From: Streptomyces sp. NBC_01439
GTDB taxonomy: Bacteria > Actinomycetota > Actinomycetes > Streptomycetales > Streptomycetaceae
Assembly (NCBI RefSeq): GCF_036227605.1
Contig: NZ_CP109487.1
Location: 8,729,001 to 8,793,000 of the forward strand
Reading direction: 5' to 3'
DNA: 64,000 nucleotides
Within the stretch, counting starts at the first letter, position 1, and each line of letters opens with the position of its first letter. The translations under genes were made by a program, and so were the position numbers. Shown here piece after piece: positions 9,984 to 13,695 of this stretch. The notes under the pieces were generated by a model. That model ran no database searches and was not told the origin of the DNA. It worked only from the letters and a program-made list of their open reading frames with translations.

Positions 9984-10079
9984 CTCGCGGCGAAGGAACG
10001 GCGGGCGGTAGCCTCCACCCCTGGCGCCGGCGCGGAAATACCCGAGCACCGGCGGCAGGCCCGCACTAGGATGGGTCGC

Positions 10080-10148
10080 ATGAACGTCACCGGCCCCAGC
10101 ACCACCGCGACCGCGCGAGCGACCAGCTCGCCGGTTGCCGCCGCCTGA
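10080..10148 (+). CDS. Ala/Thr-rich leader peptide (putative attenuator uORF)
   Basis: A 22-codon ORF that starts MNVTGPSTTA and ends SSPVAAA-stop: six Ala codons (the last three codons are Ala) and five Thr codons. A TAGGAT box at 10067-10072 leaves seven bases before the ATG, so transcription probably starts at the A of the start codon, giving a leaderless peptide. It is followed by two hairpins and then the AlaRS-like gene. This arrangement fits ribosome-mediated attenuation responding to charged tRNA-Ala, and perhaps tRNA-Thr. The sequence and layout are seen; the regulation is inferred. Confidence 0.6.
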   Translation: MNVTGPSTTATARATSSPVAAA

Positions 10149-10278
10149 CCTTCCCCTCCCTCTCCCCGGCGACCGGACAACGGTCCGTCGGTCGTGCCGT
10201 GGCGCCCTTGCTCCCGGTCGGAGACTGAACGGTTCCGTTCTCCGGTGCCTCTCCCGCTCGATGCGAAGGAGTCACCCC
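10149..10278 (+). promoter_or_regulatory. leader RNA with two hairpins upstream of AlaRS-like gene
   Basis: Hairpin 1 (10170-10194) pairs CGACC/GGTCG and GGAC/GTCC. Hairpin 2 (10219-10244) pairs CGGAGA with TCTCCG and ACGG with CCGT. The segment TCGCCGG inside the leader ORF (10128-10134) is complementary to CCGGCGA at 10166-10172, which overlaps the foot of hairpin 1, so mutually exclusive folds are possible. The SD AAGGAG at 10266-10271 closes the region. Hairpin 2 has no clear U-run, which is common in high-GC actinobacteria. Confidence 0.5.
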
Positions 10279-11445
10279 ATGAAGACCGAGCAGCTGACCA
10301 GAACGTTCGTCGAGTACTTCGAAGAGCGTGAGCACCGCCGCATCGTCGGCTCGACGCTGCTGCCACCGCCCGGCGACCCCGTGCTCTTCACCACCTCCGG
10401 CATGCACCCGCTCACTCCGTACCTGGAGGGACGACCCCACCCGTTGGGCAGGCGGCTGGTCAACGTCCAGCGCTGTCTGCGCACCACGGACCTGGAGGAG
10501 GTCGGCGACGCCACCCACCTGACGGTCTTCGAGATGCTCGGCACCTGGTCGTTGGGCGACTACCCCGGCCCGCTCAGTCTCGACTGGGGATACGGGCTCC
10601 TCACCGAGGGGCTGGGCGTGGACCGCGGCCGCTTGTACGCCACCGTCCACGCCGGCGACGACCGGACCGGGCCGGACACCGCTTCCCTGGAGCTGTGGCA
10701 GGGGCTCGGAGTCCCCGTCGAACCCACCGTGGAGGACAACTGGTGGTCCAACGGGCCCGTCGGACCGTGCGGTCCCGACTCGGAGATCTTCCTGTGGAGC
10801 GGCGACGGCCCGCCCGAGTCCACGCCCACCCGCGACGACCGCTGGGTGGAGGTGTGGAACCACGTGACGATGACTCACCGCCGACTCGACGACGGTTCCC
10901 TGGTGCCCCTTCCCCAGCGCAACGTGGACACCGGCCTCGGCCTGGAACGGCTCGCCTCCCTGCTCCAAGGCAAGTCGTCCGTGTTCGAGTGCGACGTCTT
11001 CGACCCTTGGCGCAGCCTCGTACCGGCCCTGTGGCCCCTGGACGAACGGTCGCTGCGCGTGGTCTGCGACCACCTGCGCTCGGCCGTCGTGGTACTCGGC
11101 GACGGCGTGCGCCCGGCCAACACGGGGCAGGGCTACGTGCTGCGACGCCTGGTGCGACGGATGCTCACCCTGCTGTGGCGGGAGGACGCCTCGCGGAGCA
11201 TCGAGGACCTGCCGGACGAACTGGTCCGGCACACCCTGGACCACTTCCGACAGGACATGGGCCCGGGCGACGTACGGCGGGTCCTGAGCGAGGAGGAGCA
11301 CCGGTTCCGCCGGCTCCTGGAACGCGGGCGGCAGGTGCTCGCCCGCCCCCGGTTCCGGGGTCCGCTGACCCGGGAGGACTTCCACTACCTCCACGACACC
11401 CATGGGTTGCCGCGCGAGCTGGTCACGAGCCTGCTGCACGAGTGA
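10279..11445 (+). CDS. alanyl-tRNA synthetase-like protein lacking editing domain
   Basis: A 389-residue class II synthetase core. Recognisable AlaRS stretches are LFTTSGMHPLTPYLEG, VNVQRCLRTTDLEEVGDATHLTVFEM with LGTWSLGDY (motif 2 region), NGPVGPCGPDSEIF, and the motif 3-like DTGLGLERLASLLQG. The C-terminal part covers the helical tRNA-acceptor region (NTGQGYVLRRLVRRM). The editing (SerX-like) and C-Ala domains of about 450 residues in full AlaS are absent, so this is presumably an auxiliary paralogue. It could charge tRNA-Ala, protect against an AlaRS inhibitor, or make activated alanine for another pathway. AAGGAG lies seven bases before ATG 10279. See the leader peptide upstream. Confidence 0.82.
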   Translation: MKTEQLTRTFVEYFEEREHRRIVGSTLLPPPGDPVLFTTSGMHPLTPYLEGRPHPLGRRLVNVQRCLRTTDLEEVGDATHLTVFEMLGTWSLGDYPGPLSLDWGYGLLTEGLGVDRGRLYATVHAGDDRTGPDTASLELWQGLGVPVEPTVEDNWWSNGPVGPCGPDSEIFLWSGDGPPESTPTRDDRWVEVWNHVTMTHRRLDDGSLVPLPQRNVDTGLGLERLASLLQGKSSVFECDVFDPWRSLVPALWPLDERSLRVVCDHLRSAVVVLGDGVRPANTGQGYVLRRLVRRMLTLLWREDASRSIEDLPDELVRHTLDHFRQDMGPGDVRRVLSEEEHRFRRLLERGRQVLARPRFRGPLTREDFHYLHDTHGLPRELVTSLLHE

Positions 11446-13158: not shown

Positions 13159-13695
13159 TCAGTACGTGTACCCCACGTGCGCGAGCGCCTGCTTCAGCAG
13201 CGCCGCGTGCCCGCCCGGCATCTCGCCCTGCACGGCTGCCGAAAGGGCTTCCTGCGGACTGAACCAGACCAGGTCCAGGGCGTCCTGGCGGGGACGGCAG
13301 TCACCCGTGACCGGTACGACGTAGGCGAGCGACACCGCGTGCTGGCGAGGGTCGTGGTAGGGGGTGACGCCCGCCGTGGGGAAGTACTCGGCGACCGTGA
13401 AGGGCTGGAGGGAAGCGGGGATGCGGGGCAGGGCCACGGGGCCCAGGTCCTTCTCCAGGTGGCGCAGGAGCGCGTCACGGATCCGCTCGTGGTGCATGAC
13501 ACGGCCGGACACCAGGGTCCGACTGATCGCCCCGTCCGTGCCGATCCGCAGGAGCAGTCCGATGGTGGTGACTTCGCCGGTGTCGTCCACGCGTACGGGG
13601 ACGGCCTCGACGTAGAGGATCGGCATCTGGGCCCGGGCCATTTCCAGCTCGTCGCTGCTCAGCCAGCCGGGCGTAGTTTCGGTCGTGTCAGACAT
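13159..13695 (-). CDS. NUDIX hydrolase-like family protein (DUF4916 type)
   Basis: A 178-residue protein conserved in Streptomyces and related to the NUDIX fold. It has the WLSSDELEMARAQMPILYVEAVPVRVDD opening, RTLVSGRVMHHERIRDALLRHLEKDLGP in place of the classic Nudix box, and AVSLAYVVPVTGDCRPRQDALDLVWFSPQEA. The canonical GX5EX7REUXEEXGU motif is not intact, so pyrophosphatase activity is uncertain. It is a single minus-strand gene between TetR and a divergent membrane protein. Confidence 0.75.
   Translation of the reverse strand: MSDTTETTPGWLSSDELEMARAQMPILYVEAVPVRVDDTGEVTTIGLLLRIGTDGAISRTLVSGRVMHHERIRDALLRHLEKDLGPVALPRIPASLQPFTVAEYFPTAGVTPYHDPRQHAVSLAYVVPVTGDCRPRQDALDLVWFSPQEALSAAVQGEMPGGHAALLKQALAHVGYTY

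Follow-up and report, generated by a model that had tools for sequence, protein, structure and literature searches.

We have identified what is probably a mobile, self-contained module in which an emergency alanyl-tRNA synthetase (AlaRS) stands under a ribosome-mediated attenuator. It lies within 64,000 nucleotides (nt) of Streptomyces sp. NBC_01439 (contig NZ_CP109487.1, positions 8,729,001 to 8,793,000 of the forward strand), a stretch that we call the window and whose numbering is used throughout. The host genome is a single contig of 9.58 Mb, and the window begins at 8.73 Mb. The module comprises a leader open reading frame (ORF), alaL, and a gene for a short AlaRS-like protein that starts 130 nt behind the stop codon of the leader. 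This reading is carried by leader helices that are predicted to exclude one another and by a protein that is nearly free of alanine; one small mobile cassette would unite sensing and remedy. A more far-reaching proposal, which we rate a little short of an even chance, is that this is a bootstrapping rescue synthetase, alanine-free by selection, induced on Ala codons and spread horizontally as a resistance module against natural AlaRS inhibitors.

The features of the module are given below. Leader codons are numbered backward from the stop (-1), such that segment 1 spans codons -14 to -10 and segment 2 codons -8 to -4, while the portion of segment 2 meeting segment 3 corresponds to codons -6 to -3.

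10067..10072 (+): predicted -10 promoter element, TAGGAT; TAnnnT is conserved at the leader start
10080..10148 (+): leader ORF alaL, MNVTGPSTTATARATSSPVAAA*, 22 codons; ATG at 10080, stop at 10146-10148
10107..10120 (+): segment 1, pairing with 10126-10138 as helix 1:2 (13 base pairs, with C10114 bulging)
10107..10121 (+): proposed sensing codons -14 to -10, GCG ACC GCG CGA GCG (Ala Thr Ala Arg Ala), of which -14 and -12 have the best position and -10 a borderline one
10131..10140 (+): segment 2 (CCGGTTGCCG), pairing with segment 3
10167..10176 (+): segment 3 (CGGCGACCGG), partner of segments 2 and 4
10181..10191 (+): segment 4 (CGGTCCGTCGG), forming hairpin 3:4; no T-run behind it in the window
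10235..10251 (+): segment 5 (CCGTTCTCCGGTGCCTC), a candidate partner of segment 3 or a cover for the ribosome site
10265..10271 (+): Shine-Dalgarno sequence GAAGGAG of the AlaRS-like gene
10279..11445 (+): short AlaRS-like gene, 388 aa plus stop; 10 alanines; catalytic core only

In the proposed mechanism, a plentiful supply of charged tRNA-Ala would let the ribosome reach the stop codon and cover segment 2, upon which 3:4 would form and expression would be low. When charged tRNA-Ala is short, the ribosome would pause on segment 1 at Ala codons, mostly -14 and -12, leaving segment 2 to pair with segment 3; 3:4 would be hindered and the gene would be expressed. A nearly alanine-free enzyme could be translated in the very state of charged tRNA-Ala shortage. 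A second AlaRS would be of no use to a cell short of alanine itself, which makes inhibition of the housekeeping enzyme the likely trigger, for example by an alanyl-adenylate mimic. Ascamycin is an alanyl sulfamate of a nucleoside, and compounds of the alanyl sulfamate type therefore occur in Streptomyces.

Association of the leader with the gene

The short gene was present in 75 of 392 congeneric genomes (E 1e-90), and all 75 loci were read. A further 80 named loci were taken from a species collection (the best 80 of 114), for a total of 155; 25 of 154 loci were identical to others over the leader and the next 100 nt and were removed, leaving 129 distinct ones. The nearest named relative of the window protein is that of Streptomyces sp. 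NBC_01214 (97% identity, in a comparison that may exclude the source genome itself). In a second actinomycete family the gene was found in 41 of 200 genomes, of which 30 loci were read (11 matches fell outside the sample); with one genome of a third family, f81, these made 31 extra loci. Leader and gene are carried by three actinomycete families (f1, f6 and f81 in the tool's grouping), with protein identity down to 61.5%. Some gene starts were placed via the alignment rather than a start codon.

An earlier note, made from the letters of the window, had described a leaderless-type ORF of 22 codons with six Ala and five Thr codons. The ORF is present, its peptide MNVTGPSTTATARATSSPVAAA has 6 Ala and 5 Thr, and it was found in 154 of 155 congeneric and species-collection loci and in 31 of 31 loci from the two further families. 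In the remaining locus (L094), left out of the leader counts, the contig ends 180 nt upstream of the gene. No testable homologous locus lacked the leader ORF; such a lack was one of the findings that the same note had named as fatal to its proposal. TAGGAT lies 7 nt upstream of the leader ATG in the window, and TAnnnT lies 6-8 nt upstream of the script-picked leader start in 148 of 159 loci (L199 was measured from a wrong start); the transcript is predicted to begin at or beside the ATG, i.e. to be leaderless. L190, which has an extra codon and is out of register, was left out of the 159-locus counts, though its leader is present. The leaders of L178 and L183 stop two codons sooner than the others, after ...SSAA, and were filled with N for alignment.

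Neighboring genes were compared across 99 loci, using mechanically chosen ORFs in flanks of 4-5 kb, and no conserved neighbors hinting at a pathway were found; the commonest neighboring ORF family occurred in just 8 of the 99. The association of leader and gene exceeds chance, given a leader in every testable locus versus 8 of 99 for the commonest neighbor. The gene also occurs on eight Streptomyces or Streptantibioticus plasmid records. Because the leader is constant, the neighbors are unshared and plasmid copies exist, leader and gene seem to move together as one cassette. If the module is indeed a response to AlaRS inhibitors, its patchy spread (75 of 392 genomes, eight plasmid records) would point to a widespread occurrence of natural AlaRS inhibitors in soil.

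In order to locate the element away from the gene, a covariance model, R1 (leader plus 3:4), was built from 50 loci, some of them within the 199 congeneric genomes searched. This search returned 41 strong matches (at least 70.9 bits), of which 40 lie directly upstream of the gene and cover all 40 gene-bearing genomes, while the 41st, in genome G012, precedes a decayed copy. No strong match apart from the gene, intact or decayed, was found in these 199 genomes; the next best were six weak ones (at most 32 bits, E 0.02-0.08), in a search run with stricter filters, which lose weak matches. R1 also recovers eight loci absent from its training (L165, L178, L183, L185, L187, L188, L190 and L199; 49.5-92 bits). 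A 24-base leader pattern allowing at most one mismatch was sought in the 392 genomes, and its exact form occurred away from an intact gene in G012 only. With one mismatch it occurred at 23 further places, one variant recurring in 10 genomes. Sixteen of the 23 were scored with R1, the best reaching 20.5 bits with the hairpin part only, versus 87-101 for true elements, and all 16 have at least one frame of at least 150 codons open across the site. The one-mismatch places (16 checked of 23) are taken as coding sequence rather than the element because of these low scores and long open frames. Four one-mismatch loci from other genera scored at most 24.6 bits. The recurring variant (e.g. G252:C10:208566, G181:C18:130508, G368:C1:5080488) sits in long open frames. 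At the G012 locus (L165; G012:C1, near 3255969) the leader is intact and the AlaRS-like gene has decayed into pieces in different frames with parts missing; here the leader outlasts the gene.

Exclusive helices and the proposed sensing codons

Helix statistics were taken from 50 representative loci, with slid pairings and 500 shuffles as controls. Helix 1:2 was paired in 95.5% of cells (slid controls 20-54%), 12 cells being changed on both sides. For helix 2:3 the figure was 97.4% (slid controls 12-53%), and 6 of 50 loci have U-A replaced by C-G through changes on both sides; for 3:4 it was 97.6% (slid controls 22-51%), and 4 of 50 have C-G replaced by U-A in the same way. None of the 500 shuffles reached the paired-cell percentages or the counts of doubly changed cells of the three helices. 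Comparison of the loci shows 1:2, 2:3 and 3:4 to be a predicted trp-type set of mutually exclusive helices with some compensatory changes, which is how the covariation and folding check named in the earlier note turned out. One trio tends to covary across both pairings of segment 2: codon -13 is ACC or GCC, codon -5 is GTT or GCT, and segment 3 has GACC or GGCC. Its 1:2 pair is intact in 151 of 159 loci and its 2:3 pair in 143 of 156, with 8 and 13 loci breaking them. The pair at -12/-6 is G-C, G-U, A-U or U-A in 43 of 50.

That a leader segment can pair with the foot of the first hairpin, as that note also proposed, is well borne out. Each of the 10 positions of 10131-10140 with 10167-10176 is paired in at least 143 of 156 loci (L104, L176 and L187 were left out of this count, their anchor not being located). 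Of the two hairpins claimed to follow the leader, the first, 3:4, holds up, with a mean z of -3.4 against dinucleotide shuffles, the same as for leader hairpin 1:2 (72 of 73 representatives scored, L176 left out). The second, close to the ribosome site, is a weak one (mean z -1.0; 44% score below -1). Alignment of the entire 5' region with MAFFT followed by RNAalifold gave a mixed structure, because spacers differ between loci, and was superseded by anchored columns. An Rfam scan of the window returned no family, T-box included, at gathering score.

The sensing codons were addressed with a stall model that sets the leading edge of the ribosome 16 nt away from where the P-site codon begins. The mean probability of 2:3, P(2:3), was 0.10-0.30 with the A site at -15 to -11, 0.05-0.06 at -16 and -10, and 0.00 from -9 on, where segment 2 is masked by the ribosome. 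In the same geometry the stop codon is placed such that a terminating ribosome covers segment 2. Geometry points to -14 and -12 as the chief sensing Ala codons, with -10 marginal and -13 and -15 contributing in some lineages. Among 159 leaders, Ala is found at -14 in 152, at -12 in 156 and at -10 in 159; at least three Ala stand among codons -15 to -10 in 152 leaders and two in the other 7. Codon changes were counted via parsimony on the gene tree. Codon -14 has undergone 27 third-position changes yet 6 amino-acid changes; amino-acid changes number 3 at -12 and none at -11 and -10, and range from 30 to 65 at -15 to -17 (30 at -15). Codon -12 contains the bulged, unpaired base, a C in 156 of 159 leaders.

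The earlier note had emphasized the last three Ala codons, at the leader end, and as the sensor these were rejected: 2:3 is restricted to A-site positions from -16 to -10, so a ribosome at these codons, already masking segment 2, could not signal through them. They also vary, with 27 amino-acid changes at -2 (mostly Ala or Val) and 7 at -3; codon -3 is Asp in 21 of 159 leaders, and the last Ala is often replaced by Val. Thr as a co-signal was likewise ruled out, as it varies at -9, -13, -15 and -16.

The short protein and its alanine content

The window protein matches Pfam PF01411 (class II tRNA synthetase (A)) with 280.5 bits against a cut-off of 30.3, aligned to positions 3-406 of 552, and the canonical AlaRS model TIGR00344 with 295.2 bits, below the 457 required, aligned to positions 3-404 of 847. 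Its C-terminus corresponds to about E. coli residue 406-410, and the editing and C-Ala domains are absent. The description of a truncated AlaRS paralogue lacking both domains stands, with the length corrected to 388 residues, the 389 of the earlier note including the stop. A full-length AlaRS in the same genome (open frame of 892 aa) is 39% identical to it. In an alignment of 185 sequences, which contains duplicates, W171, N213, D236 and R243 (E. coli numbering with Met), which we take to be catalytic residues of AlaRS, are kept in all 185. The residue matching D400, presumably the reader of G3-U70, is D or E in 184 and that matching N303 is N in 128. The substitutions C182 to D, I214 to H and F170 to W, near conserved motifs, are fixed in 185 of 185. 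Charging of tRNA by the short protein is plausible but not assured, because the protein stops right after the D400 motif. Second AlaRS matches were also seen in G012:C1:1304658, G018:C1:108766, G1023, G1027, G1037, G1041 and G1050; these are 56-67% identical to the housekeeping core of the window genome, mostly in long open frames, and are perhaps other resistant copies.

Alanine makes up a mean of 1.96% (range 0-5.6%) of 158 short AlaRS-like proteins, with 10 of 388 residues in the window protein; L152 (293 aa) was left out of this set, while the tree and control comparison took all 159. Control ORFs, 86 in number and selected via codon GC pattern rather than annotation (27 from the window, the rest from 18 loci), have a mean of 13.8% alanine (SD 3.1, minimum 6.8%), and every short protein lies below every control. 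Housekeeping AlaRS cores hold 5.1-7.8% (29 congeneric) or 6.2-10.3% (30 other-family), with averages of 6.6-8.4%. The leader peptide contains 28%. Thirteen of the 158 proteins, among them those of loci L087 and L140, have no alanine at all and 27 have at most one; the alanine-free ones are scattered on the tree (11 changes). Alanine alone departs from the control ORFs by over two SD (z -3.9), and it is expected to be high because its codons are GC-rich. Ser (4.9%), Thr (7.6%) and Arg (11.4%) are not lowered. Alanine-free proteins of about 390 residues are striking where sampled ORFs average 13.8% alanine.

The depletion would be best explained by synthesis without charged tRNA-Ala, and we know of no better reason for it. 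If the rescue reading is right, we know of no earlier enzyme whose sequence allows it to be made in the absence of the very charged tRNA it provides. Emergency enzymes may be recognizable at the sequence level by depletion of the cognate residue. Alanine as the likely signal of the attenuator, the suggestion of the earlier note, is supported, and the alanine-poor protein lends it independent support that the note did not contain.

Contrary evidence, rival explanations and known systems

Several observations weigh against the proposed attenuator. Most segment 1 Ala codons lie inside the 1:2 stem, and pairing therefore accounts for much of their conservation; the bulge C of -12 and the free third base of -14 appear to be the parts least explained by pairing. 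No Ala codon is more constant than Arg CGA at -11 (159 of 159 leaders). The pairs with double changes are just 2 (1:2), 1 (2:3) and 1 (3:4), numbers that 211, 409 and 203 of 500 shuffles reach; one slid 3:4 outscores the native helix in covariation (0.080 versus 0.070), and two slid versions of 2:3 show two doubly changing pairs versus one native. Equilibrium folding prefers 3:4 over 2:3 at every stall position (best P(2:3) 0.30 versus P(3:4) 0.56), and the switch would therefore need co-transcriptional timing. Within the protein, Lys (0.05) and Ile (0.25) are reduced relative to housekeeping AlaRS as strongly as Ala (0.26), the ratios for Met, Tyr and Asn being 0.49, 0.56 and 0.57; these five other residues have AT-richer codons and lie near the control ORFs (z -1.2 to -0.1).

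The output step adds to these difficulties. No T-run directly follows 3:4 in the window, and T-runs near 3:4 were seen in 8 of the 158 loci scored. The predicted exposure of the ribosome site does not increase on stalling (0.28 versus 0.30, up in 13 and down in 30 of 159 loci), and unmasking of that site was set aside, as equilibrium folding gives it no support. Segment 5 was conserved in a first alignment and pairs with segment 3 in the minimum free energy fold of the window; 3:5 was rejected as an established helix, since single loci are persuasive by eye but native pairs are no better than swapped ones over all windows. The leuL1 and trpL2 leaders of S. lividans are also without a U-tract (PMC8079986, accessible parts). 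In L173, L179 and L183, unlike the window, a T-rich run resembling an intrinsic terminator stands at the end of 3:4 or one base behind it. Our guess is that the output mode may differ between lineages.

The same attenuator and alanine signal could also serve an enzyme outside translation, one that, in the manner of AcmF or amino acid:carrier-protein ligases, puts activated alanine or alanyl-tRNA into a different product and whose synthesis simply coincides with a shortage of alanyl-tRNA. The end of the protein at about E. coli residue 406-410 and its three fixed substitutions (185 of 185) would suit such a role, AcmF is a known truncated AlaRS-like transferase (PMC12945691, as far as accessible), and Ala:carrier-protein ligases are among the functions of AlaRS paralogues (PMC9437257, likewise). 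We regard this as unlikely nonetheless: there is no conserved neighbor (at most 8 of 99 loci) and therefore no shared pathway in reach, AcmF lost the active-site N and D that the short AlaRS family retains in 185 of 185, and alanine depletion suits an enzyme that works when alanyl-tRNA is missing. Some peptidyl-transferase drugs stall ribosomes after Ala, and the leader could be a general sensor of translation stress on which ribosomes slowed or bound by a drug come to a halt, as in the case of WblC or ABCF genes, without alanine as the specific signal. Antibiotic-driven, ribosome-mediated attenuation has been described for Streptomyces genes (PMC12421871, accessible parts), but stress sensing predicts neither an AlaRS as the target gene nor a selective loss of alanine, with Ser and Thr unreduced, and we find it quite improbable.

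Readings that dispense with Ala codons as the signal fare worse. Were the rare Arg codon CGA at -11 the timing residue, with the Ala codons merely building the stem, its presence in 159 of 159 leaders versus 268 of 7094 Arg codons in genes would be accounted for, and an A site at -11 does leave segment 2 free (P(2:3) 0.21). All three CGA bases are in the 1:2 stem, which is sufficient alone to fix them, and the protein is reduced in alanine but not in arginine; we give this very little credence. The leader sequence might also be kept as a constitutive RNA, an mRNA-stability element or a functional peptide, without attenuation, and third positions of codons -13 to -4 do change as in a structural RNA (0-16 changes versus a gene mean of 23.4). 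We hold this to be the least credible, as both exclusive pairings of segment 2, 1:2 and 2:3, show doubly changed cells, and the 18 and 15 amino-acid changes at loop codons -9 and -8 show that the peptide is not what selection acts on. Elsewhere in the window, a DUF4916 / NUDIX-like protein (13159-13695, - strand) is unconnected with the leader-AlaRS module.

The auxiliary TrpRS1 of Streptomyces coelicolor, an inhibitor-resistant copy, stands under a Trp leader. It resembles the present module as a spare synthetase behind an amino-acid-specific leader peptide and differs in its amino acid and in being a class I enzyme; we know of no residue depletion in TrpRS1 comparable to the loss of alanine described here. 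A candidate attenuator precedes trpS2 of S. avermitilis (PMC1262725), and indolmycin resistance via an induced second TrpRS is cited in the reference list of PMC9437257. According to the accessible parts of PMC1262725, candidate structures in actinobacteria are confined to genes of Trp, Cys and Leu and to T-boxes upstream of ileS; the other amino-acid pathways yielded none.

The earlier note knew of no description of such a leader, and in this it was mistaken. An alanine-dependent attenuator, alaL before "alaS" (SLIV_01313 / SLIV_01315), was identified through RNA-seq in Streptomyces lividans TK24 (PMC8079986, Table 4). It is the same leader, with the peptide MNVIGRNIFATARATSSPVAAA, which two of our loci (L116 and L117) encode exactly. 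In the accessible parts of PMC8079986 the gene is not called a short auxiliary paralogue, and comparative RNA structure, sensing codons and alanine depletion are not treated. AcmF, from ascamycin biosynthesis, is likewise an AlaRS reduced to its aminoacylation and tRNA-recognition region, in Streptomyces, yet it carries N219Q and D232E, is without most ATP and alanine activation residues and belongs to a biosynthetic cluster, according to the accessible parts of PMC12945691; its N219 and D232, which probably correspond to N213 and D236, are kept in the short AlaRS family, which has no fixed neighbors. In literature searches, from which subscription papers were mostly outside, only PMC8079986 and the AcmF review PMC12945691, both seen in part, bear directly on the system. 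The leader itself is already published; as far as these searches go, what is new is the identity of the gene as a mobile auxiliary AlaRS, the three-helix switch and its conservation, the codons that probably sense, and the depletion of alanine in the protein.

Cognate bias is the closest parallel for the protein: amino-acid biosynthetic enzymes needed in starvation hold less of that amino acid (PMC4209129, accessible parts). In both cases an enzyme needed during shortage is poor in its own amino acid. The enzymes there are the final ones of biosynthetic pathways, whereas here a synthetase-like protein goes as low as zero alanines, about 50 being average for its length, and its alanine depletion can be viewed as cognate bias taken to the limit.

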